This document shows, piece after piece, positions 1 to 64,000 of a stretch of 64,000 nucleotides of DNA. Under the pieces are notes generated by a model. That model was not told where the DNA came from. It ran no database searches and worked only from the letters and a program-made list of their open reading frames with translations. The DNA is taken from the NCBI GenBank assembly GCA_018902385.1, contig JABSSW010000020.1, positions 666,982-730,981 on the forward strand, written 5' to 3'. Position 1 is the stretch's first letter. The number at the start of each line of letters is the position of its first letter. The DNA is from Physcia stellaris (lineage: Eukaryota; Ascomycota; Lecanoromycetes; Caliciales; Physciaceae). The translations under genes were made by a program, and so were the position numbers.

Positions 1-1923
1 AACGATCATTGTTTTCGAAATTGCGTTTATCAAAATTGCGTGAAAAACACGCGCGCAATTGATGTTGTTGTAAATTTATTGATTTCGACTTTTCAAAAAA
101 CATGCAATGTAAATCATTCTCGATGATTTAAAATTTCGAAATATGTGATAAAAAAACGAATCGACAATGTCTGAATGCAAATTTCGATTTCTTGATTGAA
201 ATTCACTTTTTCTATTTCTTGTTATGTTTTTGTTTTTAATTTTTTTCTTGACGTGATGTTGAACAAGATGTAAAATAGCGAAAATCGAAAAATGAATGAA
301 ATGTCACGTGAACGATCGATCAAATGTTTCGATCAATGACGATTGACGTGTCGATAAAATAATTAATTCGTATCGTACATAATTAATTGACGCATTGAAG
401 TGATCATTTGAATAATCGTTTTCGTACATAATTAAATGATCGATTGTCGATAAATGTAAATAAATTGAATTGACATTTTTCAATTTTTTTGTTTCAACGC
501 AAAATCGTGTAATTTTTTTTTATTGTTTTAACGCGATCGATCGATGAGTTTTTTTCACAATCGTTTGCTCATTCGCAAAACTGATGATCGAATCTTTGTA
601 AATTTTCTTTATTGTTTTAACGCGATCGAACGATGAATTTTTTTTCATTGTTTTAACGCGATCGAACGATGAGTTTTTCTCATTGTCGTTGATTTTCGTA
701 ATTCGTATCGTGATCGAACGATGCGATTATGAATGCGAATTCGCGTACGAAAAAATTCAAATTTTTAAGAACACAACAATTCACGACTTGTCAAGTCGAA
801 TTGTTTTGTCAAAACAGTTGCAACATCATTGTCACGAACAGCATACGCTAATTCGAATTCATAATTTGTTAAACAAACATGAACAATGACTGCATTTAAT
901 TGCGTGTAATTTTTAAATACAAACAAATCGAAAATTTTGATATGTGCGATGTCAAAACACTAAACTCAATAGAAACGCATTAATTTTTTTTTTTTCGTCA
1001 AATTATATCAATTGATTTTTGCGCATTTATCATTGCGAAAATTGTATTTTTCAACATTTACAAGTTTTTTGTTTGCGAAATCAAGCGAATACATTTTTGT
1101 TGTTTGAATTTTGACGTCAAATTTCAATTCGATTGACATTTATTCATTTTTCGAAATTTTCATCGTAAATTCATTGTCGTTTCACAATTTTGAATAGTTC
1201 AACGCAACGTTTGCAAGTTTAGTTCGAGCGTTAACGTCATCGTAAACGATAATTTCAACAGACAATATTTTTTTCGCACTAATATTAACATTTGACACGA
1301 TAAAATTGTTAAAATTGTTTGCAGAATTGATTGAAAAATTGATCAAATTTGAAACGACGAAATTAATCGCGATCGCATCGTGCAAATTTTCATAGTTAAT
1401 CGTCATAGTCGCGTCAACTGTCATGATCGAAACATCAAGTTTCAATGTTTGTTTGAATCAATTTTTAGAAACAAATTTATGAATATTAGCAACTAAATGA
1501 GCGTATTTCGAATTAACTAAATAACATTTTTTTTTTCGTATTTTTGTACGAGTTTCAAACGCGTATTTTTGAAAATGTAAACATTTTCAGAATTGACGTT
1601 GTTCGTTTCAATCATTTCTGTATGTGCATCAATAATATGAAAAAATACGTTTTCATTTTGATTTAAACGTTCAATTCGCGAAAACGTGAATATAAAATCG
1701 CGTTCAGCAAATAAATTATTTTTTTCACGTAACTTGAAAGAAATCGTAAAAGTTGATTTAATTGATATTTTAATAATTTCGTTGACACGAGTCACGCGTT
1801 TGATTTGTGAATTTGCATTGATGACATTGAATTGTATTTTAATGTTTTTGCAATTTTCGATGATAACAATCTGTTTATTTACATTTATATTCATTCGTTT
1901 TGAATTCAATATATCATTGTCAT
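1..1923 (-). mobile_element. Ty3/gypsy element A, downstream part (protease/RT linker), mutated
   Basis: Minus-strand reading frames at 1517-1909 and 1182-1445 can be followed with few stops. They resemble the region between the aspartic protease and reverse transcriptase of a group of ascomycete gypsy polyproteins (segments such as YIFKNTRL and KLANVALNYSKL; recognised from memory of the family, not searched). RT itself would lie to the left of the window. The part upstream on this strand lies at 8481-10430, beyond the inserted LTR element. If that element is skipped, the minus-strand frame runs on from ...KIFFD into NDILNSKRMN, which supports one interrupted element. The sequence is very AT-rich and holds stops, so it is dead. 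Confidence 0.6.
522..678. repeat. Three imperfect copies of a ~32-bp motif
   Basis: The motif attgttttaacgcgatcga followed by (t/a)cgatga and a T-run occurs at about 522-553, 611-642 and 647-678, all in direct orientation. It lies inside the AT-rich relic and is either local duplication or a structured part of the transposon. Confidence 0.6.
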
Positions 1924-2183
1924 TGAAATGTCATGCATTGATATGATACTAATACATAATTACACGAAAATATCGAAATGAAAAGCAAATACATGAAAAC
2001 TCGACAAGACATATGTAAAAGATTGATCATAAACGAAGTTCGATTCTGTCATTCGATGTGATAAAATAAAAATGTTAATTCTAATGACGATTCTGTCATT
2101 CGATGTGATAAGATAAAAATGTTAATTTTAATGATTGATCAGATGTTGATTTCAGATGTTGAAATCGATGCACGTTCGTCACA
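1924..2183 (-). repeat. LTR of element B (3' LTR on the minus strand)
   Basis: It aligns over its whole length to 8221-8480. The differences are mostly transitions: AG versus AA and CT versus TT, and a few TG versus TA. It holds an internal ~45-bp duplication around the motif cgatgtgataa(a/g)ataaaa, which appears twice in each LTR. Confidence 0.8.
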
Positions 2184-2341
2184 TTATTTCTCGTTTTCTT
2201 TCAACTTCGTTTCGAAACGATAATTTATTGCTTTTTTTTCTCATCGATCGACAAGATACGTGATCTTGATGATCTGATTTCTAGAAATGTACAATTCATA
2301 ACGAATGCGACAGTCGTCGAAGACGTACAGAAATCTGAAAT

Positions 2342-2377
2342 GAAAACGACGAAAACGACGAAAACGACGAAAAAGAC
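2342..2377. repeat. Four tandem copies of a 9-bp unit
   Basis: gaaaacgac is repeated three times exactly and a fourth time with one change (gaaaaagac). On the minus strand it encodes a VVF tripeptide repeat inside a decayed frame. Confidence 0.8.
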
Positions 2378-3481
2378 ATGCAAATCTTTCAGAAAACTTG
2401 CGTCTGAATGAAGATGTGAAAGAATTATTAAGACATGAAATATGCGAAAATATCGCGTCATTTCGTATGATGAAAAGACGTCTTTTCTGACAGATTTTTG
2501 AGCATGCATGCGAGATTCGTTAGTAAATAATACAAATACAGAGTAAAAAAAAAAAATGAAAACGTTTTCGAATTTCAATCCGAAATCTGATTGCGAAACA
2601 TGAGTCGTGATACTTGCGAGTAAATGATATGATAAATCATTTGAAAATATCTGAAATTCAAAAATCTTAAAGCAGATTGATCGAAACGAGAAGATTTTTC
2701 AATGCTTTGCATTTGATGTCGAATGCAAATTTATGCGAAATATTTGAAATCGAAATCATCGCAACTGATAAAAAAACTGATTTGCAATCAATTCGCTGAA
2801 AATGCAAACGATAACGTAAATGATAAAATGTAATGAAAACATTAATGTAAACGTTGAATTTTTGCAACATCAAGTCGATTATACGATGAAATGAGCAATT
2901 TCGTCATGTTAATAAAATCAACGCAACAACGATTAACGCATCGATATTTGAACGCATGCGATAATCGATGTGTACGATTCATTCAATAAAACATGTATGC
3001 AATAAATTTTCTGAAAAGTAAATAGTTTTTGCGAATCTCATAGATAGCTTCGTTGATCATTAGTAAACAATTAAGAATTTTGTTGAGAATTTTGTTGACT
3101 CATTTGTATGTAACATTCTGATTTCAGACAATTGTTTATTCATATATTTTGCATGACATTTATCTTTTCAGCGTTCAATAAAATCGAACGACAGTTTCTG
3201 AAAATGTTTTTGACACGATTCAATTCTTTATGCGTCGTAAGTTCTGATTGTAAACAACGTGAAAACGATAGTATCGAAATAAAATCGCAAAAAAACAATA
3301 GAGTTCGTCATGAAAATAAACATCTAATGAATAAACGACGTCTATTGACTGATTGTAAACGATACAGTTCATTGTTTAATCATTTCTCAAAGCAAATTCA
3401 TTTTTTCATTTTTTCATCGATTGACGATTCGAAAAGTATCGTTGATTAAAACGTAAATAATTGAATCGATCATTGCGAAAA

Positions 3482-4018
3482 TTAAAATGATCGAAACAAA
3501 TGCAACAAACGTGATCTGAAATCGAAAATGAAAAGAACGACGAAAACGTAAATCGTGATTTGATGCAAAAAATGTTTGTCATTTTGTATGATTTGAAATG
3601 AACGATTTCTCAAATCGAGTAAAAACAAAAGAAAAACAATGCGAATGAATTTCGCGAACGTATGTTGTTGAAAATTTTTCGATTTTGAATTTTTCAGATT
3701 TTGACTAATCGATATTTTCTGATTGATTGCAGACATGAAATAAAAAATTATTCGTGATTGATGCAACAAGAAACGTGATTGACGAGATAAACGAATGTCG
3801 AAACGTTACGAAAAAGCAAATTTTTCTTGATGTTGACGTAAATCAAACGATTTAGATTTTTCACGAAACATGCGACTGAAATCATCAATAGTGAAATAAG
3901 ATTTGATCGAGCGAAATTGACGAATATCGAAACATTGCTGAGAAGAACGACGATTATAATGCTGTCGCAAATCAAATGATTTAAATTTTTCATCAAACAT
4001 GCGATTCAAATCATTCAT
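3482..4018 (-). pseudogene. Element B frame with duplicated TIDD...FDLRQH segment
   Basis: The minus-strand frame at 3806-4018 holds two related stretches: RMFDEKFKSFDLRQH and RMFREKSKSFDLRQH. The second is preceded by IKSYFTIDD, and a Q-C/R-F-D-I-R-Q-F segment lies between them. A further frame continues to 3482. This looks like the C-terminal, low-complexity part of a gag-like transposon ORF known from leotiomycete elements (recollection only). No catalytic motif is visible. It follows the C2H2 modules on the same strand and probably belonged to one long ORF with them. Confidence 0.45.
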
Positions 4019-4194
4019 AATGAGATATGATTTTTGAAAATAAAATTTTTGATGTTTTCGAACGAAAATTCGAGAAAATGTAAACGAAAAAATAAACGAA
4101 CATTTGAACGTTGCAATCTTCGTTCGTTTTGATGCAATTTCGAATGTCGCAAAAAGAAAACACGAACGCGTTGATGCGATGACTGATTCGAAAA

Positions 4195-6178
4195 TTATTG
4201 AAAATTAGAATTTTTGACTTTTTGATGTTGCAAAAAAATAAAAAATTTCAACGAAACAAACGAAACAAATGAGCAAACGACTGTTGATTTCTTTGCGATT
4301 TTGCATGCAAATTCGAATGCGAAAATTCGAAAATCAAAATTTTTGACAAATTTTCGAACATGATGTTGACGTATATGCTCGTGAAATTTGTTATTGAAAT
4401 TGAAAATCTGATTGCAACGTCGACACGTTGTTGTTCTTTTCGTTGATTTTGATTTATGCGAAACGAATGACGTTTTTTTGATTTCGCATACGAAATTGAC
4501 TGCATTGATAAAAAAATGAAAATTGTTGACGAATTGATCAATAACTTTTTCAATTTTTGTTTGTCTTTGAGATTTTTGATCGATCAATTCGATTTGTTTT
4601 TGAATTTTCTGTTCTCGTTGATGTGCACAACGAATGAATTGTTGTTTTAATTTTTGATGTAATGTTTCATGACACGAAAAAGATTCGAGATAATGCTTTT
4701 TGATTGAAAAAACAACGATTCGACAAATAAAACAATTTTTCTTGAAAATTGAAAAAAACGAAATAAGCGAAGCAAACGAGCATTGATTTGATTCATTCTC
4801 GATCAATTTCGATATAAATTCGAGTGCTCGTAGTTGAATTCGATGATCGACATTCTTTGTAAAAACATTTGTTGAATTTTTCGCGATATCGCACGTTAAA
4901 TTGATTGTATCGTTCGAAAAATAAAAGTTCTTGACGAATTTCAAAACTTCATGATTGCGAATATGCTCGTATAATTTTTTGTTAAAGTTGAAATTTTGCT
5001 CGCAAAATTTGCAAATTGTTCGAATATTTGTGACTTTTTAATTTGATACGCTTTTCATGAATTTTGATGTTATCTTGAATGTTTCAATCGAAAAATTCGA
5101 ACTTTTCGACGAAATGATTTCGAAAGTTATTTGATTTCGTGAAGTTCGTAAAACGAACGTTTCAATGACTGTTAATTTCTTCTCGATTTCGCATATTGAT
5201 TTGATTGTATCGATTGAAAAAAATGAACAAAATTTTGAAAATTTTTAAACAGAAATTTTTTGAAATTTTGATTCGAACGTTTGAAAAAATGATGAACTCG
5301 ACAAAATAATTGAACATTGAATTGATATGTTTTTCATCAATTCTGATAAAGTTTCTGATGTATTAAACGCGAGAAGCGAATTCATCGATGAAATGACTGT
5401 TTCGAAAATCAATGTTGATTCAAATATTTGCTTTGATGTTGCAATAGAAATTTGCAACTCTGTTCGCAATTTTGACGAATCAGAAAAACGTTGAATAAAT
5501 GCATTTTTTTGTTGATTCTGATATGTAATCAAATGTAAAAGACGAGAGATATGAACTTTCTGATGCAATGACAGTCTCGAAAATCATGACAGATACGAAT
5601 TTTTGTCTTGATATTGCAATAGAAAGTTTTTGCGAAACAGATGAACATGCAATTATCGACATTTTTTTTGTTTCACATATCAAATTGATTGCATTGATCG
5701 AGAGATGAAAATCTTTGACGAATTTCGAAACTTCGTGAATGCGAATATGTTCGTACAATTTCTTGTTGAAATTGAAATTCTGTTTGCAAATTTGCAAATC
5801 ACTCGAACGCATGTGAATTTTTAATTTGATATGTTTTTCATCGATTTTGATGCAGAATTGAATGCACGTAACTGAAAATTCGAGCATTTTGATGAAACAG
5901 ATTGCAAAGATGTTTTCGTTTCTGATGTCAGATTTTTTTTTGATGTGACGAAAATCAATGATTCAACGAGCGTGATGAATGATTTTTTCGATTTCGCACG
6001 TTAAATTGATTGTATCGTTCGAGAGAAACGAACTGTTGACATGTTTTTTCGCATGCAGTTCGCGCACGTGTTCACGAAACTTTTTTTTGAAATTGAAATT
6101 TTTCTCGCATCGCATGCAGATTATTCTGAAACAATTAGCTAGTTTTGCAAACGAAACGTCGGCGAAATCGACTCGCAA
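4195..6178 (-). pseudogene. Degenerate ORF with at least four C2H2 zinc-finger modules
   Basis: Reading the minus strand, fingers of the form C-x2-C-x12-H-x3/4-H appear near 6105 (CMRC...EHVRELH), 5010 (CKFC...EHIRNH) and 4420 (CRRC...EHIRQHH). A fourth, near 5790, keeps one Cys and the His pair (ICKQNF...EHIRIH). Each finger is followed by a conserved tail ending in a motif like INLTCEI(E/A)K; five such tails can be read, one without a finger. The repeated finger-plus-tail unit suggests a modular nucleic-acid-binding protein. Frames are broken by stops and shifts, so it is not functional here. It is the main recognisable content of LTR element B. Confidence 0.6.
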
Positions 6179-8220
6179 AATCTCAATTCATTCATTCAAG
6201 AATGCTGATTTCATGATGTTTTGTTTATCGTATCAAATATCGAACGTTTGATTTCATAAACATGTGAACAATAAGTGAAGCAGATTTGACTTTCGATATC
6301 GATGCTGACATTGCTGAAAATGTTGCAAAAATTTCGCGATCTCATTGAATCGTCGATTTTCGCATGTGAATGTTGAATCGAAAATATCGATATTTTGAAA
6401 CGTTGATGTTGACTTTGCAATTTTTCGATTTTCAAAGCTTTTGACTTAGTTCGTTTAGCATTTTTGACTGCGTTGACTTTAGTTTTTTTCGCAATTTTCA
6501 GAACATTTGATTTTTGTTGTTCTTGTTGTTTTTGTGAATCAGATGAAGTAAATACTGTTGAACTCTCGATGATTTCGCATGTGAGTTTCGATGCAGAAAT
6601 TGAAAAAAAGACGAATTTTGTTGATTTGCAATTGAAAAAAAATGCATTCGTTAAAGTTATATCGAATTCATGCAGAAAGATGAAATTCGGCTGATTTTTG
6701 AATCAATCGAAAACAGAATTTCAAAGACAATCGATCAACAGAGCAAGCAAGTTGACTCTCGATGTTGATATTGAAATTGTTGAAATCGTTGTAAAATGTC
6801 TGTGATTTCGCAAAACACTTCAAATTCTGAATCATTTTGTGTGAGTTTCGGATCGAAAAGATCAAAAAATGAAAAAATGCAAGTTTGACAATTTCATTCG
6901 CTTTCGGATTTTTCGTTTTTGTTGTTTCGAAGTCATCGCGAATGCGAGAAAAAAAGACAATTTGTTAAAAAATTAAATAAATTCGCAAAACTGATTTTCC
7001 GAAATGTAAAATGATTCGAATACTGAATGCTGAGAAGAAATTCTGCAAAAGTGATTTGAATTTTCTGAATTGAAATGATATTGACTTTATCGCAAAAAAT
7101 TCGAAAATCAGAACTAATTGCTAAACAAACAGATGTGATTTTGATATGTTCTCAAGCAATTCAAATGATGCTGATATCGAATGCTGAAACAAAACGTTTT
7201 AAAAGATTTTTGATGTTTCGAATTAAATGATTTTCGATGCAAAATTTCTGAAAACTTGATATTGAATCTAACATCGAATCAGAAGACAAATGATGATTTG
7301 CTAAATAGATAAATAGAAAATCAAAAATTCTCGAATGAAAAAGTGATTGCAATAATAATCGTTGATTGAGTGTTCGAAAGTTTTTTGACTCGAGATATTT
7401 TGCTTTTCTTGACGTGATATTCAGTTCGCTTCCGAAATTTTCTGATTGAAATATTAAAGCAATCGAGTAAATAGAAAAAAATGATTGAGTTGTCAATAAA
7501 GTAGATACGATTCTGAAAAATTCTCGAAAAAAATAGATGATTCGGATTCGATCGAAAAAACGAAAATTTTTTCGAAAATTTCTGATCGAATAACGAAATT
7601 TCTGATTCGATCGTTGTTTTGAAAAATTGATATTGAATTTATCGAAAATATTGAAAAATGAAATGAATTGATGAAAATCAATAAATATGTTTTCGAATTG
7701 ATTTTCGAGCGAAAAAAATGTTTCGAATATTGATGATCAAAAATCTGATTTCTGATTCTGTCACACGATGTGATGTTGATATGATGTTTTCTGAACTTGA
7801 TGATTTAGACTTGATTTATTGATATGTAATGATGTCACAAGTGATTTCGAACGTCGTTTTCATGATTTGTCGTTAAATGAATGCGTATCAACGTTCGAGA
7901 ATATCAAACAATCGTCGTTTCGATCACAGTTTACAACTATCTCGTCGTTTCGCTGAGTATCGAAATGATTTTTTCGTGAAAATTCACACTCGAAATCTTT
8001 GCTTTCTGAAAAGTGATTTGAATGAAGTAGAATTTCGTTGCTCTCATTCAAATCGTTTAGATTTTCGATTTCACGTGAACAAAATTACGTCGTTCTCGTT
8101 GCACGTCTAGAATTTAATTGATGACGTCTTAAATTTTCGCGTTGATTTGAAATCTTGTTTATTGAATAAGTTGTCGTATTTCGAGCAGCTTGAAAAAATT
8201 AAAATGATTTCGATATAATG

Positions 8221-8480
8221 TGAAATGTCATGCATTGATATGATATTAATACATAATTACACGAAAATATCGAAATGAAAAACAAATACATGAAAATTCG
8301 ACAAAACATATGTAAAAAATTTGATCATAAACGAAAGTCGATTCTGTCACTCGATGTGATAAGATAAAAATGTTAATCTTAATGATTGATTTTGTCACTC
8401 GATGTGATAAAATAAAAGTGTTAATTTTAATGTTTGATCAAATGTTGATTTCAGATATTGAAATCGATACGCTCGTCACA
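8221..8480 (-). repeat. LTR of element B (5' LTR on the minus strand)
   Basis: This is the direct partner of 1924-2183. Read on the minus strand it begins TGTGACGAGCG at 8480. The interior that follows starts CATTATATCGAAATCATT, and the same internal start follows the LTR at 56834-57050. That ties the two elements to one LTR family. Confidence 0.8.
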
Positions 8481-10430
8481 TGTCAAAAAAAATTTTTGTT
8501 TTCAATTTTTTCATTATGTAAATTTGTCGAATGAACGTGACGATCGCATTTTCGTCATTAATCGAAATTTCGAAAATTCGAAAAATTAATGAAATATGAT
8601 TCGTCGTGATTACAACGACGTTTTCAATGTCGCGAATTTTGAGAAATTTCATAATTTGTCGCGCATGAATTTGATAATCAAATATTTTTGCATCAAAAAT
8701 TTACGATCGATTAAAAATGCATCGCATTCGATATCGACGCACATATCGATGAAAAATTGTTTTATGTTTGTTTTCATCGTGACGTAACGTCACGAACGAA
8801 ATTCGAAATTGAATCGTGTATCGATTTTGACATTTGACTGTATGATAAATGTTTGATAATTATAAACATTTTTCGTCGACGATGTGTCAAACTTAATCGA
8901 AACTGTTTGACACGAACGCAAATGTCGATGAAATTTGTTATTAAAATAAAATTTCGATTGACAACGTTTGCGTGAATAAATTTTTGTTTGTTTGATTGAA
9001 ATATTCAGAAAATATTCGAATGATTCATGAATCACATAATTTTCATTAGATTTCTGAGTTTCGAAATGCTTTTCGTCATGATATTCATCATTTATCATAA
9101 ATATCGTTGACGCGTTTTCAATATTCATGTTGTAATCATTTTGATAATTTTTTTCATCGATTGAATAATTGTTTTTTGTTTTTTTTTTCGCAAAATACGC
9201 TCGTCGATATGATGTTTTATTTTGATTAAACGTTTCATTTTGATTGAAATAAGTATTTTGTTTTGACGAAAACGAAAATGATGTTGAAAAATCAACAAAA
9301 TAGTTATTCAAACGTAAAAATTGCGAATATTGAAATTGCGAATCGAACGTGTTTCGATTTTTTTGAATTTCGTTTTGTTGCGTTTGTTGAAATCGATATT
9401 GTTGATTTTCGTATGAACGTTTTTGCATATTTTGTGTCGATTGTTGTCGATTTGAATAATTTGATTGATATGAACGCTGTTGAGAAATATAAACGTTATT
9501 TTGTTTTTCAAATTGATACGATATCGAATATTGAATTTGACGTGATTGCGAAAAAAATTCATTGAAATTTTCGTAATTTACACGTTCATTGATAGCAAAA
9601 AAAATATTATACGAATCGAATAATGTTGACAACATTGATAATTGAAAACGATAATTGAATTGAAAACGACGTTCGTTTTCGAAAAAATGATAAAATCGAT
9701 ATCGATTTTCGATGTTTCATCATATTTTTTTTTTATCATCGAATTGTTGAAAAAACTCATTCATTGTAATTTTTTCTGTCGATTTAATCAAATCTCGTCG
9801 AAATTTCAATTTCAATTCATTGTAAATTAAATACAATTGCGAATAAATTGACATCATTGTCGATTTAATATTTTTAATTACAATTTTCGCGAAATCGAAT
9901 GATTCGCAATGTCGACGAACATTTTTTATCGTGTATTTTTTTTTCGTGATGATCGTCAACGTCGTTGACGACGATTTTTATAACGTTTTAACAACAAACG
10001 TTTTCATTTTTTTACGTCATTTTCGAATTTGATCAATTGTTTTTGATCATCGTTGATTATTTTTGTGTATCAACGTAACGCGTGATCACGCATGCAATTA
10101 TAAAAATTTGTTCGAATCACGTCGACATCTTTGAACAACGTCATATTTTTGATTTTTTCAATGTAAAAATGAACATTTCGAAAATATGTATTTTTGTTCG
10201 AATGTTCGATCGAATTGTTTGTGATGACGTTCTTTTTTTCGTATCACGAATCAAAAAATTTTGTTTTTTAAACATTTCATTTGACGTCATCATCATTGTC
10301 AAAAAATTCGATTGAATCTGATAATTCGACGAGTTTTGAAATTTTGTTTGAATATCGTTTCGAATATCTGTAATCAATGTTTGAAAAATTTGTCATTGTT
10401 GTTGCGTGAATTTCGTGTTTTGTCAATTGT
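8481..10430 (-). pseudogene. Ty3/gypsy element A: gag and start of aspartic protease, mutated
   Basis: Minus-strand frames at 10141-10377, 9720-9959 and 8790-9635 form a gag-like protein: a hydrophilic N-part, a segment ending MNEFFQQFDDKKK, then a long Gln/Asn/Tyr/Ser-rich stretch and a zinc-finger remnant (CQSKF...HRHLRSC). At 8790-8481 the frame reads CVDIECDAFLIDRKFL, which fits a retropepsin active-site region where D-T-G has become D-I-E. The frame stops at 8481, where LTR element B begins, and resumes at 1923. The many surviving CAA glutamine codons are notable for DNA this AT-rich. Confidence 0.6.
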
Positions 10431-12660
10431 TATTTTCGTTCGTCATATTTGAATTGAATGCGAAAATAAATTCGATATTTTTGTGTTTCGAGAAATAATA
10501 TTTAGCGAAACTATGATGTTGTTTCGTCGTTGAAAAAACGACGTCGACGAAATGATTTGAAATTTACGACGTAAATTTTTCGAAAAATGAACGTAAAAAA
10601 TATCAAAAAAATATTTGCAATCGTCGATTTTAAATCAAAAATGAATGACGTAATTCGATCATTAATTCAATCGAAAAATGATTAATTGTTTCGATACGTT
10701 TCGATGACGATCACGAAAATTTTAAAATTTTTGCGAAAACGAGTTTTGTCGACGATTCATTTTGTTGAATAAACAGTGTTTGTCGAAATTGAATGATTAA
10801 TAATTGACAACGATGTTGATTTAAAACAATTAATTACAATATTGTTCACAGTAATTTTTGCAAATGTATTGACAAAATAAATTGAATCAATTGTATCGAT
10901 GTAATCGAATAATTCAAACGCAATGCGAATGATTTGTGATGTGAAAACAATCAAAATGATTTAAATGAAAATGATATGTCGTATTGAGATTTGAAATAAA
11001 ATGATGATAAAAAAAAAAAAAAAAAAAATTGAAATTTTCAAGACTTGTTGAACAAATTATTTGTTGATGAAAAGACAAATGAAATCGTTAAATTGAATTG
11101 TTCGAATCAGACAAAAATTCGATGATAAATTAACATTCAAATGCGTCGTCATTGAACGATGACAATGCGAATTTTCACGAAAAATCGAAATGTTCTGAAT
11201 ATTTGAATGAGAAATCAGTCGTCTTTGCTGAAAATTGTAAAAAATTGAAAAGATTTGATTGAAATTTTTATTTTCAATTAAATATTTGTTGTTGATGATT
11301 GATTTCGATCGACACGTCGAATCGAACGAACAATAAAGTTTTCAATAACGACAGCGAAAAGAATATTGATGAACAAATGATTTGCGTACAAAATGCAAAA
11401 TTGTTCGAAAATTGATACGTTAAAAAACAAAAAATGATGTCGTTTTGTTTACGTACAAATTATCGTTTGAATGATGTTATCAATTGTTATGCGTAAAATG
11501 TGAATTCATTGATTTAGAAACTATGAGCGACAAAATGTCAATTTATGTACAGTAATTGCGAATCAATTGTTTGATCATCATTCATTTAATATAAAACGAC
11601 GACAGAATCTTTGTCAAATGTTTTGCAAAAATATTCGATTTAATTTCAAATCATTCAATTTGATCTTGTGTCATAACATTTGACGACGACGAGAAAATGC
11701 AATGAAACGAATTGATCGAATTAAAATTGAAACAAACGAACACAAATAAAAACAAAAAAGAAATTTTTATTCGAATATGTCATGATCGATATAATTTTCA
11801 CGAAATTTTTTTCAAATCGAATCGATTTTTATCAAATGTTTTATCAAATGTTTTATTCAATATTTTATCGAATGTTTTATCGAATGTTTCATCGAATGTC
11901 TTCATGCGCGAATCATTTTCGCAAACATACATCGATGCAAAAATTGCAAATTCGAACTTTTGAAATTTTAATAAGTCAAAAAATTTCGCTGAAAAAACAA
12001 ACTCGATTTGTATGACATATTTTCGATATTTTCGTCGCAAATGATCAAATCAGTCAAAATTTTGAAATCAACATATGTACATAATATTCAGAATGATCAA
12101 TATCAAAACAAATACATTCTGATATTCTATTGCGTTATATTCAATCGAAAATCATGATATGTTTCGAAAATATGATCAAATGATTGCAATTTTTGCAATT
12201 CAAACTTCATGTTTGACATTGAAACTTTTCAGTTATGAATTTCAGATTTGCGACACTCTTTTTCGATTTAGTTAGTTCAAAATTTATTTGACGATCAATC
12301 ATCAAAAATGTAATTTGTTGTTGCAATTGATTTGCAATTTGCACATCAATCAACAATCAAATATAATTTTCATTTATTTAATCAAAATTGTAAAGCAGAA
12401 TGAGCGCATTTCAATGTTGCAAAAATAACAAAAATCGATTCATTATCGCAATAGTTTTGAAACTTGAAAAATCATGTTAAAAATGTGTTTGTAAAACAAT
12501 TTCGCAACAACGTTTGCGAAACAACAATGTCATATTCATCATAATTCAATGCGCACTCGCTCGATTTTCGATATTTTTGATTTTTTGAATAGTATTCATT
12601 TCGTGTTTCAAAACAAGTCTTCGAATGTATGATTTACTTACTGAATTAAAAAGCTATTAA
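10431..12660. other. AT-rich transposon-derived DNA without a supported gene
   Basis: No frame here resembles a protein I recognise. It probably holds the 5' part and 5' LTR of gypsy A, but I cannot place them. A 20-nt A run lies at 11009-11028. Base composition switches to GC-balanced at about 12660-12730. Confidence 0.6.
11827..11898. repeat. 12-bp minisatellite, six copies
   Basis: Six head-to-tail copies of ttttatcRaatg (the third is ttttattcaata). On the plus strand it encodes a repeating LSNV tetrapeptide and on the minus strand FDKT, so both strands stay open. No flanking gene is recognisable. Confidence 0.85.
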
Positions 12661-49540: not shown

Positions 49541-49939
49541 GAAATGATTTCGATTTTATCGATAAGCTATCGATAAAAAAATTTTAAAATTAATTTTCAA
49601 CAACGTGTTGTTTCATTCAATATGACGACGATGACAATTGCATTCGTCGAAAATTTTCGCGATTCGAATATATTGAAATCGTTGATTTTATTTCGAACGT
49701 ACAGATTTTTTTAATCAATTTTTTTTGTGCGATTTTCATCATTTCAATTTATTCGATCGTTTATTTTTTATCTCGAATTTTCGATGTTTGATTCGTTTTT
49801 CATTTCATATTTTCAACAACGATTTCAATTCGATTTTTCGATTTCGATTTAATCGTTTTCAAATCAAATGTACAGTCAATGATTCAATCAAATGTACAAT
49901 GAATTCATTTCGATTCAAAACATTTAACAACAACGAAAA

Positions 49940-50416
49940 TGTCAAATCACAATTATTTTCATATATCATCATACGTTATTCATTACTGTGAGATTTCACT
50001 TTTGATACAAGTGATTAGTTTTACAGTTATGAACTCGGATTTCGCTTAAAGTTAGCGTACAAAAACACGAACGTCGCAAGTTCGAATTCTACACAACGCA
50101 TCGAAAAGTCAATTATTAGCATTCAAACAGAGTCGTACAACGAAACGATATCAATATTAGTCAAATGATTTGATTGACTAAACACGATTTCGTATCGAAT
50201 TTCGTTCGCACATAGCGACATAGTTCATACAAACGAGAAAGACTTATCATTAATATTTCGCTACAAGTACGTTTCATCACGCTATATTCGATACATTTTA
50301 ATTCATCGAAGTTTAATTAAGTTGAAAGAATGTGTCAAATCACAATTATTCTCATATATCATCATACGCTATTCATTACTGTGAGATCTCACTTTTGATC
50401 GATGATTAGTTTTACA
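49940..50416. mobile_element. TRIM-like miniature LTR element (477 bp)
   Basis: Direct terminal repeats of 86 and 84 bp (49940-50025 and 50333-50416) start TGTCAAATCAC and end TTTTACA, the TG...CA ends of LTRs. The flanking pentamer gaaaa occurs at 49935-49939 and 50417-50421, a perfect 5-bp target duplication. The 307-bp interior codes for nothing. A purine-rich stretch (gttgaaagaa) precedes the second repeat, as a polypurine tract would. A box-B-like gttcgaattc lies at 50080-50089. The repeats differ by three C/T changes, all where C precedes T, plus one short indel. It must have been mobilised by another element's enzymes. Confidence 0.8.
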
Positions 50417-50761
50417 GAAAACAAAACGAAATCAAAACGAAAAAGCAAACGAAAAAAACACAAAGCGAATTAGAAAATAAAAGAGAAAATTTCGAAAATT
50501 TTGACGATTTTGACGATTTCGAGCTTTGCGAAATCAATATCGCGATCATACATTGTTGCAAAAATTTCGAATTCGAACGAATTGATTTCTTTGTAATAAT
50601 TTCGATTTCATTGATCGAAAACGACAATGTATTTAACATGCGAATTGATTTGATGAATACATAATGAAATTTTGATGTGAAACGCATTCAAATGTGATTC
50701 TTTTTTCATTTTCTTGATATTCGAAAGTTTCGTTTCGTTTTTCGAAAATCCTAATCTCAGG
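50417..50761. other. AT-rich filler between TRIM and right inverted repeat
   Basis: It contains short (gattttgac)-like repeats near 50500-50520. No gene is supported. Confidence 0.5.
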
Positions 50762-54031: not shown

Positions 54032-54419
54032 TTTAGAATTCTTGACGTCAAAATGTGAAAATTCCATATCTCGTTTCATCAATTTCTACAATACAAAGTG
54101 TAATAATGTAGAATTTACAATATATATTGTTTCAATATGTTGTTACATATATCAATTTTCAAATCATTGTTAAATTTTGTTTTGATACAATTGTGATTGT
54201 TCTGATATTGAACATTTGAAATTCAAAATATCAAGCTTTGAGTTAAAAAGAAAATCACTATTCGAAAAATACATTTTACTATTTGAAAAATAAAATTAAA
54301 ATTATCGAATTTCGAATTTGCAACGTCGAAAAACAACGCGATTTTTTTCAATCAACATCATTTTTCATGTTTTGCAATTAAATCATTATATTTTCATCAA
54401 ATCATTGCGCAAATCGAAA
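54032..54419. other. AT-rich DNA at the island edge; no gene
   Basis: It could hold the terminal repeat of the following transposase element, but no matching end was found. Confidence 0.4.
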
Positions 54420-55770
54420 TGAAACACGATAATAATCAACATGATATGTTTGACGATTTTTTTATTTTTGAAAAATTCGAAAACATTGACGAATTCATGC
54501 AATTTTTTTCGTTGAAAAATGAATATGACAACAATGAAAATTTTTTCGAAAATTTCAACGTTTTTATCAAACGTCAAAAATATGCTGTCAATATTACAAA
54601 AACAAAAAAAAACAAAACAAAATTAAAAAACAAAATATACATAAATTGTACGCGAAAAAAAAAATTTGCGAACACGAATATTGACAAACGCAATGTCGTT
54701 TTCAAACGCATTGATTGTTTTTTCAAAATCGTTGATATATTCAACGAAATCGATAAATAAATATTGAAAAAAATTGTTGATTCGAATCACATTCACGAAA
54801 ACGACGACGAAAATTTTCACGCAAAAATACGTCGTTATTTCATGAATTTTGTTGTACGTGCAAATATTAAACAACAACATTTCGACGACGCAATTTCGAA
54901 ACAAATATTTTTTTTCATTCGAAACAAATACGATGAAAAAAATTTCAATAATTCGATTATTGATTCGAAAAATGTATACAACGTTTTGAATCGAATTCGT
55001 GAAAAAAAATTAAAAAATATAACAAAAATTCAAATATTGAACGTAACGTTTCATGCAAATCAAATTCAATGATTCGTACGAATTAACAAAAATTTCGTCA
55101 TTGACGAAATGCAACATTTTTTTTGAATTAACAAAATATCGATGAAAATGTTTCGAATCAATGACGAAATTTTGTTGTTAAATTGTACATACAAAATCAA
55201 TCGTTACAAAATGTCGTTGTGTGTTTTGAAAAAAATAATTTGTTTGAACATTTTTTTTTATTCAAACATGTGTTTGATAAAAAAAAAAAATTGAAAAATT
55301 ATCAATGATTTATCAAAACGATTAAAAAATTTTACAAACATTTCGACATTTTTTTTTTGATATATGATTTTCAAACGATGAATCGAATATTTTTTTAACA
55401 ATCAAAATCGAAATATCGTTGAATGCGATACACATTTTATGCGTTTGACATATGAACAACAACGTATTTAACAATTGCAAAAAACATTTCGTTATCGTCG
55501 AAAAATGAATAATTTTTTATGATAAAAAAAAATATCAAAAAAAATTGACACAAAATTTTTGATACGTGTAAAACATTCAGAATTCAGATCAACAAAACAT
55601 TGCGAATCGAATTTCGATAAAATTATATCAAACAATTCGATCATCGAAATTCGATAAATTATGAAAACGATCAATTTGATCACGTCAACATCAAATTTTC
55701 GATTGAATTCAACAAATTTATATTTTCGAATAAATTTCGAAATGTGTGTACGATTGAGCAAATTGACTGA
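54420..55770 (+). pseudogene. MULE (Mutator-like) DNA transposase relic
   Basis: Plus-strand frames 54420-54760 and 54764-55072, then broken frames, follow the layout of fungal MULE proteins. First is a FAR1-like DNA-binding start (YAVNITKTKKNKTKLKNKIY, then a Cys/Lys-rich stretch and NEIDK), next VDSNHIHENDDENFHA, resembling the HNH-like end of that domain. A helical linker (NVLNRIREKKLKN) leads to the catalytic-core entry LLLNCTYKINRYKM at about 55175. There the expected first catalytic Asp (LLxDCTYKTN) is Asn (aat at 55181-55183). Further on, stops and shifts prevail. No terminal inverted repeats were found. Identification is from remembered family patterns. Confidence 0.6.
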
Positions 55771-55924
55771 CTATATAAACAAAAATCTGTAAAATAGTTA
55801 ATTTTGCAATTATTAGTTTAATCATACAATCGTTTTTGTTATACATTTCTGATGTCACATTTTTTGAATTTTATATTTTAATAATTATCATAATTCATAG
55901 ATTAACATCATTCGTGTATACAAC

Positions 55925-56833
55925 ATGTCTACATTTTTCAACAGTATAAATATTTTTACGAATTTTGAAAATGAATTCATTTTGAATTCATCAAAATTCG
56001 ATGTTATCATGAAAAAATATCGAACATATATTCAACAACAACATGTTCGAATGAAAGCATTACAACGTGCATTTGTATTTTCGATCGTTCAGATTTTTGT
56101 TTTTAAAAAAAAATCGTTTTACATTAAAATAATGAAAAACAAATCAAAACTATTTGTTGAAAATAATTATAAAAAATGAATTCAATACGTTTGAAAAATG
56201 AAAAATCAATTCGACATGAATCAAGTGAACGATTACGTCAAAAATCTTGACAAAATTAAGTTTTTTTTTGTTGTAATTTTTTTAAAAAGAAAATTTATCG
56301 CACAATTATTTTGAAACGTCAAAGTCAAAAACAATTCGAAAATCAATTACATTTGAAAGAAATATGTCGATTTTCTTAAAAAAAATACTAAAAAAGTTTT
56401 CACTAAAAAAAAAAATAATTTCGAAAAATATAAAAATTATAAACAACAAACAAATCAGACAATAAAAAATTACGATGCACATCGCATCGTTTTGTTTTCG
56501 AATTTACATGAATTTATGAAATTTTCATCAACAATAAAGTTGCAAAATTTCGTATTGAATTTAATTCAAAATAATCAAAATTCTTAAATCGAACAAGAAA
56601 TTGAAAACGACAAAAAAATAATTTTGAAACGTTTCAAACAACGAGAAAACTTTCAACGCAAAAAGCAACGCAATGTCAATCAAAATAAATTTGATAACGA
56701 TTTTAACAAACGCAAAAAAAATGAGAATAATTTCGATGAAAACGAAAACAACAATCGTCAATTTAATAGAAATCGACGAAAAAATCGAAAAAACGATAAA
56801 AAATTCAAATTCGATAATTTTAATCGTGAATCA
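55925..56833 (+). pseudogene. Lys/Asn/Arg-rich transposon ORF remnant
   Basis: Frames at 55925-56179 and 56624-56833 are strongly charged (KQRENFQRKKQRN, NNNRQFNRNRRKNRKND) and look like the C-terminal part of a gag-like or transposase tail. The second is cut at 56834, where an LTR begins. It may be the end of the MULE protein or another element. Confidence 0.35.
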
Positions 56834-57050
56834 TGTGACGAGCGTACATCGAATTCAACATTTGACAGAATTAACATCGAACTAACATCGTTATTTTATC
56901 ACATCGAATGTTAAAGTCGAAATTCGACTTGACGCATTCAAGAAATCAAATCTTTTACATATGTCTTTGCAGATTTCATGTATTTGCTTTTCACTTCGAT
57001 ATTTTCGTGTAATTATGTAATAATACTATATCTTTGCATAGCATCTCACA
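56834..57050 (+). repeat. 5' LTR of gypsy element C
   Basis: It begins TGTGACGAGCG and ends GCATCTCA (TG...CA). It aligns, in the opposite orientation, to the LTRs at 1924-2183 and 8221-8480, including the block acatatgtc...tttcatgtatttg and cgatattttcgtgtaattatg. The interior then starts cattatatcgaaatcattt as in element B. The 5 bases before it are aatca; the partner target site lies beyond the window. Confidence 0.75.
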
Positions 57051-57915
57051 TTATATCGAAATCATTTCTTCTTCATGCTCGTTCATGATACGCGAGCATT
57101 CAAATAAACAAAACTTTTTACAGTTAAATTCAGTGAACGAATAAAAACATAATAGATTCAATTTGATTTTGATCATTCAACGAAAGCAACGAAACATAAT
57201 AGACTCGTTGTGAATTGAAAGAAACGAAACATAATAAATTCGTTTGTTTTGTTTTAAAGAACGTTCAGAACAGACGAATTCACGCGATAGTTTCGATTCA
57301 CAATACAACAAACTTTTTCTTTTTTATCATTTTTGACGAAGCATTCGTGCTTGAAAATCAGAAAATCATTGAATCAGAAAAAACATCAACAAACAAACAT
57401 TTTTATTCAACATTCATTTGCTTCATCATAAGCAAACATTTAAAAATTTCACTCAACATCACATCGAATTTGTCACTTTAAATGAAATTCAATCATCAAG
57501 ATTTACTTAAATCATTGTTTTGCTCATTTTTTTTTTTTTTTTTCAACAATTATTCGATTTTCGTTCACAATTATGATTTTTTCAAATTTTCTTTTCGAAA
57601 TCAATCTGAAAAGTCGATTATTGCTTAGCGAAATCACACAATTGAACGTGTATGTTTTTGATCGAATAATCACAAATTTCGAAGCAACATATCATCGACA
57701 TTTTTTTTGTTTTAAATTTTAGTCAAAATGACGATGAATTTGATGAAAATAAATCGTTCAAAATCGTTAATTCGATAAACATTTTTTCGAAACAACAATT
57801 TCAATCAATGATCGTCAGTCATCTCGACGAGTTTTGAATTATTTTCGAAATTTTTCGACGAGATCGAGATCGAAAAATGATCGTCATTCGAGTTTGAAAT
57901 TTTCAAATAAAAAAC

Positions 57916-58929
57916 ATGAAAATCAAAATTTCGAATCATAATAAAAAAAAATATGAAATCAACGAGATTTTGCGTATCGTCAAAGTCGAAATCTTTGCTG
58001 TTCAAATTCAATGTAATGAATTTTTCAAAATTCAGCGAATTCGTGAAAATAAAAATAAACAACGAAAAAAAATTGTTAAATTATCAAAATCTGAAAAATT
58101 TTTTAATTTCGAAAAAAAATTTCGTTTTGAATTTAAGAAACGCTCGTTCAAACAATCTGATTTTTTTGTTGAAAAATTTCGTTCTGATTTTAAAACACGC
58201 TCGTTTCGACATTTTGATTTTTTTACTTTTTTTGAACATAAGAATTTCAATACATTCGAATACATTCGTTACGATATTTGAAAAAATAAATGCATTGATA
58301 AATTGAAAATTAATTTCGACTGATACGTCAATAAATTCAAAAAAATTTTTTGCAATTATTGATTGAACAAAAAAATTTGCGAAACATATCGATATTCGAC
58401 ACGAAATTAAACGCAATTTTTTCGAATCAATTGATAAAATCTTCAAGTTTTTGAACGACATTTATATCGATGTTGATCATTTTCGAAACGTTCGTCGTCA
58501 ATACGATAATTTAAAAATGAAATTCATTGAATTTTTCAACGAATTTTATTTCGAATTTCTTCTTTTAATCAATCAATTGCTCAAAAAAATGAGACGAACA
58601 AAATTCACGATTTCGAAAAAAAAATCACAACAAAACTTCAACATGTCGACGTTGTCTTGAACGATTATGAAATTTTTGACGATTATTTTCGCAAATTTCA
58701 AATCATGAATAACAAACATCGTCGCATCAAAAACAACGATGTTAAAATTAACATTTTTTTCATTAAAAACAAATCATCGATCAATCAATTAAATTTTCGA
58801 ACTCGTCGTAATGAACAATACATAAAAAATTTGAAAACTAAATATACGACTTTTTTAAAAAAAAAAACGTATAAAATTGTCATTGTTCGTTTTAATTTGT
58901 CTAAATTGAAAAAAATGTCGAAAATGTGA
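57916..58929 (+). pseudogene. Gag of element C
   Basis: The frame at 58451-58660 carries the capsid-like segment RRQYDNLKMKFIEFFNEFYF followed by EFLLLINQL. The next frame (58657-58929) has LNDYEIFDDYFRKFQIMNNKHRR. Both resemble gypsy gag (retrotrans_gag type) proteins. Proline and serine positions expected in gag read Phe, consistent with C-to-T change at CC and CT. Frames upstream (57916-58281) are Lys/Phe-rich and uncertain. Confidence 0.55.
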
Positions 58930-59509
58930 TGAAAAAAATCATTGATAAAAAAAATGCATTTTTGACAAATCATTTGATAATTGAATCGACAATTTGATTA
59001 AACAAAAAATGTTTAATTTGCAAATCATTTTTTTGATCAACGATAATTTTTCAAACATCGACGACGATAATATAAATTTCGATGTTTCAATCACATTCGA
59101 CGTTGAATCGAAAAATTAACAATTTTTTTCGAAAACGCGAAAAAATTATCAGAATTTGTTCACGAAATTTTAGCATAACATCTTTAACGAATTTCATTGT
59201 AAATTTTTAATTAAAAAATAAATCTGTTTTCGAACGATAAAAAAATCATAATTCATAATTTAATTGATATCGATGTTTTTGAATACGTTTTCATTAATGA
59301 AGAAATTGCGCAAAAAATATGTCATAAATTAAAATTAATTTCAATTTTTTGTCGCGATTCAAAAGAGTTTTTAATTTCGAAAAAACGAAAATCAAATTTA
59401 TTATTCATCAGATATTGTTCAAAATGACGATACAAAATCATTCAGAATTTTTCGTCTCATTGTTTATCATCAGAATAAAACAACATTCGCTGATTTTAAA
59501 AAATCTTGA

Positions 59510-62500
59510 ATGAACAAACATGAAATAATTTTCAATATGATCAACGACGAATGTTATTTCATTTCGAATCATTGTGATCACGTTGAAATTTTTTTTTTGT
59601 TATCACGTTCGTCTATATTTCAGAAATTATTTAATTCGAACAAGCATTCGAATAAAACGTTCTATTTGTCATTTTCGAAACGATTTTTAACGTCGTTTTC
59701 GTCGACAAACGTTCAAAAATATCAAATATTGCAAAAACGATCAGTCTCGACATTTTTTCGAATAATTTTTTTTCGTTTTACTGTGAAAAACTCGAAGAAG
59801 AACGAACAATCAATAAAAAAATTCTTGAATTCAAACTTCAAATATGTCATTGAAGAAATAAACAAGAAATATTCATCGAATAAGTCGTTCAAAAAAAAAC
59901 GAAAAACGAAAATCATACGTGAAACTCAAAAATCGAATCTAATTAACGCTTCGATAAGAAAATTTGACATTTTCAAGAAATTTGCACGTCGATTTAATCG
60001 ACGATCTAAAATCACAATTTCGAAAATTGAAAATGACGAACAGAATTTCGATTTTGATATATCATTAAACGTGACGTTTATCGACGCGACGATTTTTCAA
60101 TTTTTAACAAAATTTAAAAAAAAAAAAAAAAAAATCAAGATTTTTTCGTTGATTATGAAGAAATTAAACGAAATTATTGACAACGTCAAAAAAAAACTGA
60201 TCAAAATAAAAATTGATTTTGATTTGAATTTCAAAAAAATTTTTAAAATCATGAAAACAATCGTCGAGAAATTGAAACGTAAAATTTTTGAATTTTTTAA
60301 ACGTTTCGAAAGTGTATTCAATTCGAAAAAGACAAACAAATTATTTTTTCATAAATTTTACGATCACAAAATCGAATTGATCGAAAATTCGAATCAATTG
60401 TTTCGAAATCGAGTTTATTTTTTATCGTTCAAGAAACTCGAGACTCTTCAGAAATATTTACACGATAATTTTCAAAAAAAATTTATCAATTCAAGCAAGA
60501 CGCTTTATGTTTCGTTTATTTTATTCGTCGTCAAATCGAATGAACAATTTCGTTTGTGCGTGAATTATCGAAAATTGAACGTCATAATCAAACGCAATAA
60601 TTATTCTATTTCGTTGATCGAAAAATTTTCGCTAAAATTATCGATTGCAAATTCTTGTTCAAATTAAATATTATATCGATTTTCAACAAATTTCGAATGA
60701 ATTCACAAAACGAAAATTTCATTATTTTCATATGTTCGTTAAATATTTACAAATATCATGTATTGTTTTTCGATTTTATCAATGACTCGATCAATTGACA
60801 ATATTACATGAACGATTTGCTGTTTAAATATATTAATCATTTTTGTCAAATGTATTTGAATGATATATTCATTTACAACAAAATTCGAAAACAACATTAA
60901 CGACATTTCATTCAAATTTTTCAAAAATTGAAAGAAATTGATTTTCAAATCGATATCAAAAATGCGAATTCTTTCAAACGAAAATTTCATTTTTAAAAAT
61001 CATATTATCGACAGAAAGTTTACGCATGAATTTCAAAAAAATGCAAAATATCGTCAATTGAATTCGCTCAACAGACATCAAAAAAATGCAAACGTTTGTG
61101 AATTTTTGCAATTTTTATCGACGTTTCATTAAAGCGTTTTCGAAATTCGTCAAGTTTTTAATTCGAATGATCAAAAAAAAATTGATTTCGAATGAATCGA
61201 TTTCGTTAACGAAACATTCGAAATTTTGAAAAAACAAATAATCGAAATTTCAATTTTTCGACATTACGATCGCAATCGTAAAATTATTTTGAAAATCGAT
61301 TTTTCAAATTGATGTTTAAATGAAATTTTATTTCAATACGACGACGACGAAATTTTTCATTCGATGATTTTTTTCAACAAAAAATGATTTTTGTCGAATG
61401 CAATTACGAAATATATGACAAAAAAATTTCTGATCATTATTCGATGTTTGAAACATTGAAAATTCGAATTCGAAAATATTGACGAATCAATCGAAATCTC
61501 ATCGATCACAAAAGTCTGAAAATTTTTATGACAAACAAAAAATTCACTTTTCGTCAAATACGTTGAATCGAAATTTTAGCGAATTACAACATCAAAATTC
61601 AATATCAATTCGAAGTCAAAAACGTCAAAACGAATGTTTTAATTAAAATGTTTGAATTTCGTTTCATCGAAAATGACGAACGTGAACTCTATAAAAAGCA
61701 AATTTTGTTGTCATTTTTTCGATTGCAATTATGTTCGATTGACGCGCAAAACGATTTATACGAACGCGTCATGCAAATCAATCGAAACGACGAAAATTGT
61801 ATTAATCATCGTCAAATTTTGATCGATGAACAGATCATCAACGAAAAAGTAAATTTGCAAAATTGTTTCGAACGAAACGAAATTCTTTTTAAAAACGAAA
61901 ATCTGTGAATGTCAAACAGACTAAATTTTATGATTGAAATAATTCGTGACGTTCACGATCAATTTTTCTGTGCACATTCGAACATGAATCGTATTGAAAA
62001 ATTCATTAAACGTTATTATTATTGATTTAGTATGAAGTTATTCATCAAACGTTATATTCGTAACTGTCACAAATGTCAACGATCGAAATTTTCACATGAT
62101 GATCGTCACGAATTGTTAATTTCATTGTCGATTTTTAATCAACGATGAATTGATATATCGATGAATTTCATAATTGAATTATCTGATTTCAAAAACAATA
62201 ATGTCATTTGTATTATTATCGATCGTTTAATCAAGAAACGTCATTACGTTTTTTGCGTGATTAATGACGATGATTTAACAATTCAAATCTGTGTCAAAAT
62301 ACTGTTTCATTATATATTTCGTACTCATGAATTATTTTCATTCATTATTTCAAATCGAGATGATCAGTTCGTAAATCGAATCTGAAAGATTTTCTGTAAA
62401 CGATTAAGAATCAAATGTAAATTGTTCACTGTTTTTCAATTTGAAATCGATGATCAAATCGAGCGAACGAATCAAAATATCGAAATTCGATTGCGTTTGT

Positions 62501-62760
62501 ATTGCAATTATCGTCAAGACGATTGAGTTGATTGAATTGATATCGTGAAATTCGCTGACAACAACGATGTTTCAACAATCATCGAATTCATTTTATTTTT
62601 CATTAATAAAAATTATCATTTTCGAATGATTTTTGAATCAAATTTAGAAAATTACGAAATCACTAAAGAACGTCTGTTGATTCAACAAGACGAATTCATT
62701 GTCGAAAAATGAATCGTATCATCGAATACGTCAAAATCAACGTTGTCGATGCAAAACAAA
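59510..62760 (+). pseudogene. Pol of element C: reverse transcriptase, RNase H, integrase
   Basis: The longest frame (59510-60667, 385 codons) ends in the RT N-terminal core: KLETLQKYLHDNFQKKFI, LFVVKSNEQFRLCVNYRKLN. The RT active site lies at 60853-60864 as YLND, where YLDD is expected. RNase H-like sequence follows (IEISIFRHYDRNRKIILKID; NYEIYDKK). Integrase starts near 61930, with the zinc-binding end RYIRNCHKCQRSK at about 62060, then DISMNFIIELS and IISNRDDQF, where IISDRG is expected. Trp positions are TGA (for example NQR-stop-IDIS). Many frame-keeping Gln CAA codons persist. It is inactive. Confidence 0.75.
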
Positions 62761-64000
62761 AAATAATTGCTCAAATCAACAAATTTCGTTTTTTTCAATA
62801 AATTTTGAAATAAAAAATTACGTTTGATTGAATCGTCGTCACATAAAACAATTCGCTCGTCAAACAAATGAACGACAAAAATTGAATTCATACAAAATGA
62901 TCGAAAAAAAATTTCGTTTATGAATTGAAACTGCTCGACAATATGCACATTCATTCAATTTTTCATTTTGATTGTTAAAAAAGAATTCTAAAAATTCGTT
63001 GAAAAAACAACATAACGATTTTTCAAAATCAATTATCGCAAACGAAATGTTTGAATGAAAATTCGATGATGTATTACAATTTCGATATCATTATTATCGT
63101 TTTCAATATCGTTGCAAATGATCGAATTGAAATTTTCATGATCGAATCTGATATTATGTCGACGATGACGAATTTGAAAATGCTCAAAACATCGTGAATG
63201 TTTTTCACGAAATTAATTCAAAAACAGCGAAATCTGTTTTGCGAAATGACTAAATCATGAATTTTATTGTTTATGATCGATCAAAAATTGTCATCGAATT
63301 CGTTACAATTCATTTTCAAATTGATTTCAATAATTTTTTTTTTGTCATTCGCTTCGTTATCATTTCGCGTTGTTTACAGTCAAAATTTACGTCGCATGAA
63401 AAATGAATCGTGTCAAAAACATTTTCAAAAATTGTCGTCAATTTATGACAATGAATAATAATGTAAAATGTTATGCAATAAATTAAATAAACAACAAATT
63501 GTCAAAAAAATTCGAACATTTACGAATTTCTCAACAAAATTCTCAATTGCTTATTAATGACACGCGAAACTATTTGTAAAATTCGTTCAAAATATTTGTT
63601 TTTCAGAAAATTTAATACATGCACATTTCGTTAAATGCAATGTACGAATCAAACGTCGTATATGCGATAACAATCAACGTGTTAATCGTGATGATAAAAA
63701 TTTTATCGATTTGTTCAAATTGTTCGTCTCGTGATATCAATTTGATGTTGCAAAAATTTTCAAGATTGTTGACGCGTTAAGTCAAATTTACAATTTTTAT
63801 TTATTAAAGTTCGTCGAAACTATTTTTGACGAAACGTAAACCGAACTGATTTTTCAAAACATGTCATTACATTCACGCTTTATCGCATGCAATGTACACA
63901 CGAATTTTCGCATACGCGAAAATATCAAAACGTTAAACATTGTTACGACGATTTCATTAACATGATCAAATTGTTTATTTCATCGTAAATCGATTTGATT

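Follow-up and report, generated by a model that had tools for sequence, protein, structure and literature searches.

The stretch of DNA analysed here (the window) comprises 64,000 nucleotides of Physcia stellaris, positions 666,982 to 730,981 of contig JABSSW010000020.1 (G000:C20:666982-730981) in a 44-Mb assembly of 147 contigs, and it reaches the end of its contig. Two AT-rich blocks (1-12660 and 54100-64000) lie on either side of a gene island of normal composition, and the subject of this report is the mutation process recorded in these blocks, in which C has been replaced by T mainly where a pyrimidine follows. The features are listed below (aa, amino acids; CC+GG, the summed count of both dinucleotides).

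1-12660: AT-rich hypermutated block, with 3 CC and 5 GG within 12.66 kb
1004-1929 and 8481-9198: pieces of the left block that match locus L038 (contig C60) at about 91%
4195-5037, minus strand: open relic frame of 280 aa with no Trp, Pro or Gly and no Pfam match
8790-9716, minus strand: Gln-rich relic frame of 308 aa with no Trp, Pro or Gly
12661-54099: gene island with Sec7/PH, PUF/RRM and other genes; normal dinucleotides except in a small block at about 49.5-50.75 kb
49540-50750 (approximate limits): small hypermutated block within the gene island, a repeat that is uninterrupted elsewhere and is split here by a nested short element
49940-50417: the nested short element, 478 bp long and bounded by direct terminal repeats, with a CC+GG of 1
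54100-64000: AT-rich hypermutated block, with 1 CC and 0 GG within 9.9 kb
56476-56833, plus strand: repeat fragment with 92% identity to the start of L032
59033-62490, plus strand: mutated retroelement region with 89% identity to L021, an RVT_1 locus on contig C57
59510-60667, plus strand: open relic frame of 385 aa with no Trp, Pro or Gly and no Pfam match
60853-60864, plus strand: reverse-transcriptase motif reading YLND (TATTTGAATGAT), encoded by TAT TTG AAT GAT

The blocks pass into the island over about 300 bp on the left (12.6-12.9 kb) and about 100 bp on the right (54.0 kb). An initial annotation, made from the letters of the window, had proposed that C changes to T only before a pyrimidine and had placed a gag relic at 8790-9635. 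The frame is open and Gln-rich as described, with 34 Gln codons (31 CAA and 3 CAG), but it runs to 9716, lies on the minus strand and has no Pfam match, so that its identity as gag is unconfirmed. The same annotation read the YLND motif as a former YLDD; the codons at 60853 agree with this, and a rule that turns G into A after another G predicts the change. A comparison of a window protein with a plasmid collection gave no match.

The dinucleotide composition of the two blocks bears out the first part of the proposal, that CC and GG are almost absent, CT and AG scarce, and CpG and CpA/TpG abundant. Positions 1-1000 contain neither CC nor GG. Across 1-12660 there are 3 CC where 210 are expected and 5 GG where 321 are expected, with observed/expected ratios of 0.40 for CT, 0.36 for AG, 2.78 for CpG, 1.17 for CA and 1.43 for TG. 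Across 54100-64000 the counts are 1 CC (184 expected) and 0 GG (137 expected), and the ratios are 0.28 for CT, 0.27 for AG and 3.33 for CpG. Together the blocks hold 9 CC/GG where their own base composition predicts about 852, so that the depletion persists once composition is controlled, while the ratios in the gene island are 1.00 for CC, 0.97 for GG, 1.06 for CT and 0.84 for CpG. The depletion of CT is less complete than that of CC. Expressed per kb (left block, right block and island, the last computed without the small block at about 49.5-50.75 kb), the densities are 0.6, 0.1 and 124 for CC+GG; 39, 26 and 136 for CT+AG; 326, 368 and 126 for TT+AA; 57, 53 and 51 for CpG; and 135, 121 and 138 for CA+TG. 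Since CC+GG is lost while CpG and CA+TG stay near their island densities, C has been lost mainly before a pyrimidine. An index of the form (CC+GG+CT+AG)/(TC+GA+TT+AA) is 0.08 and 0.05 in the two blocks and 0.91 in the gene island.

The mutation spectrum was obtained from aligned copies of repeats. The reference, L005, is a retroelement at C52:252957-260314 with normal dinucleotides and 99.5% identity between its long terminal repeats (LTRs) over 400 bp. The flanking DNA that was read, 2.96 kb on the left and 0.59 kb on the right, is mutated. In the cleanest pair, L005 and its mutated copy L022, C had become T at 428 of 430 CC, 447 of 458 CT, 25 of 439 CA and 0 of 408 CG sites, T had become C at 1 of 1672 sites, and there was one transversion in 3,464 sites. 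These sums, about 900 C-to-T changes to two other substitutions (indels excluded), point to a burst and not to slow decay. The pooled set comprised 11 mutated copies, that is, all loci read that align to L005 at 68% or more, and gave C-to-T fractions of 97.3% at CC, 86.2% at CT, 7.3% at CA and 3.5% at CG; T-to-C change was.03 at TA and TG and below.004 at TC and TT. Alignments in which CpA led the C-to-T changes had been set beforehand as the refuting test of the proposed rule, and the result was the opposite, with CC and CT in the lead. The 5' neighbour has little effect (.955-.983 at CC and.825-.900 at CT). The rate at CCC (.921) is below that at the other CCN (.983-.990). Both strands were mutated in all 11 copies.

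The few changes at CA have a context of their own. In L005/L022 they favour CAY (20 of 184; Y, pyrimidine) over CAR (5 of 255; R, purine; Fisher p = 9e-5), and CA differs from CG with p = 6e-8. Shared ancestral difference was rejected as their source, since apart from C-to-T changes a single transversion and a single T-to-C change separate L005 from L022; weak but genuine leakage is the more likely source of the 25 CA changes in L022. Over the 11 copies, C-to-T changes private to one copy number 74 in 2751 at CA and 18 in 3343 at CG.

Other families show the same order, in alignments that span few repeat families and include one copy each for the second retroelement and DNA transposon families. 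In the second retroelement family (L007 to L067, 1 kb) the changes were 123 of 130 CC, 119 of 148 CT, 7 of 122 CA and 4 of 134 CG, and in the DNA transposon family (DDE_1; L040 to L066) 221 of 278 CC, 184 of 301 CT, 20 of 294 CA and 18 of 310 CG. In the more diverged L019 family CC and CT again exceed CA and CG over a higher background, with.830/.624/.200/.116 for CC/CT/CA/CG in L032. The copy comparison covered parts of the AT-rich blocks of the window, namely 59033-62490, the two left-block pieces and 56476-56833.

Decay of this kind is widespread in the assembly. In a search with the RVT_1 profile, 150 of 527 candidates were scored and all were matches. Among the 30 loci for which DNA was read, 24 are decayed, 20 of them with a CC+GG of 0-6 in 2.4-3.5 kb and the other four with 11, 15, 35 and 100, and six are near normal in dinucleotides (L005-L008, L019 and L033). 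The nine DDE_1 loci profiled comprise four that are saturated, one that is normal (L040) and four that are mixed with flanks. The 150 scored RVT_1 matches, 140 of which contain stops, carry 250 TGA, 33 TAA and 3 TAG in frame, so that TGA makes up 250 of 286, and ten DDE_1 matches (nine with stops) carry 44 TGA and 3 TAA. This dominance of TGA fits a change of GG to GA, which turns the Trp codon TGG into TGA as the initial annotation had inferred from relics in the window; mutation of the CpA type should instead favour the stops TAG and TAA. In a survey of 305 bins of 500 bp, drawn from the window and nine further stretches (some beside elements and some arbitrary), all 122 bins below 36% GC had a CC+GG of 6 or less, as did none of the 173 bins at 42% GC or more and three of the 10 intermediate bins. 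Standard indices of repeat-induced point mutation (RIP) scored none of the 305 bins and none of 42 RIPper-style windows in the AT-rich blocks as positive, as had been anticipated from the window.

The process also reached ribosomal DNA (rDNA). A relic, L039 (G000:C41:45899-46052 and around), with 28S, 5.8S and 18S matches, has a CC+GG of 8 in 3,000 binned bases. This hypermutated relic is the only 5.8S match reported, with 39 of 2644 candidates scored, and no intact rDNA was seen among those scored candidates.

A search of the assembly for genes of the RID and DIM-2 type, which the initial annotation had suggested, returned three loci with the methyltransferase profile PF00145, on contigs C3, C5 and C6. 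The gene on C3 is DIM-2-like, scoring 608.6 bits in two stretches to PDB chain 9bap_A, whose entry is named DNA (cytosine-5-)-methyltransferase and which we take to be Neurospora DIM-2. Two genes are RID-like: that on C5 (L003/L004, G000:C5:498855-499792) has an EQT motif in its translation and that on C6 (L001, G000:C6:791557-792528) an EET motif, where EQT or EET in place of ENV in the C5-methylase domain is presumably the mark of the RID/Masc1 class. Their proteins are 40% identical over 174 residues, and two TGA codons within the C6 match probably lie in introns. With these three genes the genome would probably belong to Pezizomycotina. The only mating-type gene found was a MAT1-1 alpha-box gene. 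RID/Masc1 genes were detected only in Ascomycota in the accessible part of a survey (PMC4352252); the papers cited here by accession were all available in part, and what is said of them applies to those parts.

Not every repeat is mutated. L006 (G000:C5:1166521) and L007 (G000:C12:60312), which share 95% identity over 3.5 kb, are both unmutated, and the differences between them have no CpY bias. Their family has at least 38 further rows at 70-82% identity among the matches listed, and one kb of one of these (L067) was compared. The 478-bp element has a CC+GG of 14-32 in the five copies read and of 1 in the window copy, which is nested within a longer mutated repeat; compared with L056, the window copy shows CC-to-TC change at 28 of 30 sites and C-to-T change at 26 of 59 CT, 3 of 61 CA and 2 of 54 CG. 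There are also eight 5S matches at 57-89 bits (match scores only). Short repeats may escape mutation. The direct terminal repeats of the 478-bp element are two 75-nt copies with a start-to-start distance of 393, and the halves of its host repeat are contiguous on C6 and C94 with a 5-bp overlap, the pattern expected of a 5-bp target-site duplication. The element looks like a miniature LTR element.

We consider it highly probable that the AT-rich blocks are repeats hit by a RIP-type, repeat-directed burst of C-to-T mutation with an inverted context, CC > CT >> CA > CG. The sequence context, the mutation of both strands, the confinement to discrete blocks (edges of 100-300 bp) and the three methyltransferase genes, one DIM-2-like and two RID-like, are directly shown, as is the burst-like character of the changes in L005/L022. 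Gene DNA is spared and the edges are discrete, gene islands being assumed to be single-copy. In the proposed mechanism, the blocks would be old transposons struck by a repeat-directed C-to-T mutator, which would have affected the rDNA relic elsewhere too. The mutator would work on both strands and in bursts, its target picked by the 3' neighbour: nearly every C before C, most before T, a few percent before A (mainly CAC and CAT) and, in L005/L022, none before G. The repeats may be recognized by homology in the sexual cycle, and a methyltransferase of the RID/DIM-2 class with CpY specificity would make the lesion, that specificity setting the context. More specifically, this may be a RIP-class defence with an overturned rule, CC > CT >> CAY > CAR > CG, in which CpG is protected and the order is set by the specificity of one methyltransferase, perhaps the divergent RID-like protein on C6; this fuller version could equally well prove right or wrong.

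Several observations weigh against a repeat-directed burst of this kind. The ratio of about 900 to 2 comes from one pair, L005/L022; against L005 the other ten copies carry 9-23 transversions (97 in L017) and change some CA (.035-.147) and some CG (.025-.072), and 42 of the 107 private C-to-T changes fall in L015. Strand rates differ somewhat in a few copies (.67/.82 at CT in L018). The direction of change was inferred from composition, with a copy of normal dinucleotides as reference, and one genome was analysed. The unmutated pair L006/L007 suggests that a long duplication can escape or that the process has not yet met it. The 478-bp comparison covers five copies of the eleven rows listed besides that of the window, and two of them are partly hit; two of the five are neighbours on C22 that overlap by about 85 bp.

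The closest rival is slow decay, in which a DIM-2-type enzyme active in vegetative growth would methylate silenced repeats at CpC and CpT, with gradual deamination of the methylcytosines and no RIP burst. It has in its favour the DIM-2-like gene and two precedents: Zymoseptoria tritici Dim2 promotes mitotic C-to-T change at CA, with CC methylated after CG and CA (PMC8016269), and Neurospora DIM-2 prefers CpT according to a review (PMC13297926). However, about 900 C-to-T changes beside one transversion and one T-to-C change would need a rate far above background, and in two of three partly mutated copies the CC sites that remain lie in clusters (L010 and L021, each with a lower number of runs than any of 2,000 shuffles, but not L024), as episodic action would give; we regard slow decay as unlikely. 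Still less credible is an attack on element DNA or cDNA by an AID/APOBEC-type cytidine deaminase that acts on single strands. On general knowledge such an enzyme would yield C-to-T hypermutation of retroelements, but enzymes of this type generally have a context set by the 5' neighbour, whereas the changes here depend on the 3' neighbour and vary little with the 5' neighbour at CC and CT; both strands are mutated, moreover, and DNA transposons and the rDNA relic are mutated too.

An artefact of composition or assembly, in which AT-rich DNA is simply without CC and GG, can be practically dismissed: the blocks are AT-rich, but the 9 CC/GG seen stand against some 852 expected, CpG and CA/TG are near island density, and the changes are visible site by site in aligned copies, which refutes it. 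Two known processes were also rejected. Decay of methylated CpG to TpG/CpA does not fit CG change at 0 of 408 sites in L005/L022 or a CpG density in the blocks that is not below that of the island. Canonical CpA-type RIP does not fit change at 25 of 439 CA beside 428 of 430 CC sites, or the 0 of 42 positive RIPper-style windows. The evidence supports a process of RIP type with a CpY context, distinct from the canonical CpA type.

How the sequence context of RIP is determined could be approached directly through a natural variant in which CpC, the dinucleotide that ranks last in Neurospora crassa, comes first, CpG is spared and two RID-like genes are present. A genome with heavily destroyed repeats can go unnoticed in surveys that rely on TpA/ApT and CpA indices. 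If the overturned rule is correct, such a system may also exist in other fungi now classed as poor in RIP, since standard indices score it as negative. The effect on codons differs as well: stops are mostly TGA, Gln codons survive, and frames remain that are open but dead and could mislead gene prediction.

The nearest known system is canonical RIP in N. crassa (RID and DIM-2), which shares C-to-T change on both strands of repeats, the sparing of gene DNA, and RID-like and DIM-2-like genes. The preference reported for N. crassa is CpA>CpT>CpG>CpC and that for T. reesei, as printed, CpA~CpG CpT>CpC (PMC5496416). Relative to N. crassa the order is inverted in its main feature, with CpC first and CpA nearly spared, and in that respect it may be new. 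The claim of novelty is a limited one: CpC as the preferred target of RIP is not named in the available parts of the literature examined, and a kingdom-wide survey (PMC12543289) or Clutterbuck 2011 could already describe it.

Signatures of the CpT type are reported for Magnaporthe, Botrytis and Sclerotinia in the survey mentioned above, whose signatures in the part available are CpA, CpT and CpG and do not include CpC (PMC4352252). Anisogramma anomala shows CpA plus CpT (PMC10998396), some families of Colletotrichum truncatum prefer CpT (PMC6180176), and in alignments of RIP-capable control fungi CpT-to-TpT change is dominant (PMC7882544). These fungi resemble the present case in that CpT is a target, sometimes the main one, and in having genes of the RID/Masc1 class, more than one in some species. 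They differ in that, within the parts available, CpA is also targeted in the species-level results and CpC has no signature, although PMC7882544 names CpT/ApG alone. Losses at CpC have precedents. RIPCAL defines a CpC class and finds CpT strong in Neurospora Tad1, and Stagonospora nodorum repeats are depleted in CpC/GpG, yet with CpA-to-TpA change dominant (PMC2621366), while Monilinia has CpA-type RIP with CpC-to-TpT double changes (PMC8959702). These two fungi thus share with the present case CpC/GpG depletion or CpC-to-TpT double changes in repeats.

More distant systems share single features. In Z. tritici, repeat mutation is likewise linked to a methyltransferase, Dim2, but its mutations lie at CA and its CT sites are almost without 5-methylcytosine (PMC8016269). 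Hypermutation in Rhizoctonia solani AG8 is likewise discussed as possibly RIP-like, but it is described as CpG-biased and as extending across the whole genome; CpC changes are the closest-spaced of the four dinucleotides in Table 2 of that study, at 214 bp over the whole genome (PMC4014442). Finally, methylation induced premeiotically (MIP) in Ascobolus is likewise directed at repeats and associated with Masc1, a gene of the Masc1/RID class (PMC13297926), but it modifies repeats without mutating them and was rejected as an explanation on that ground, as here the sequence itself has been changed.

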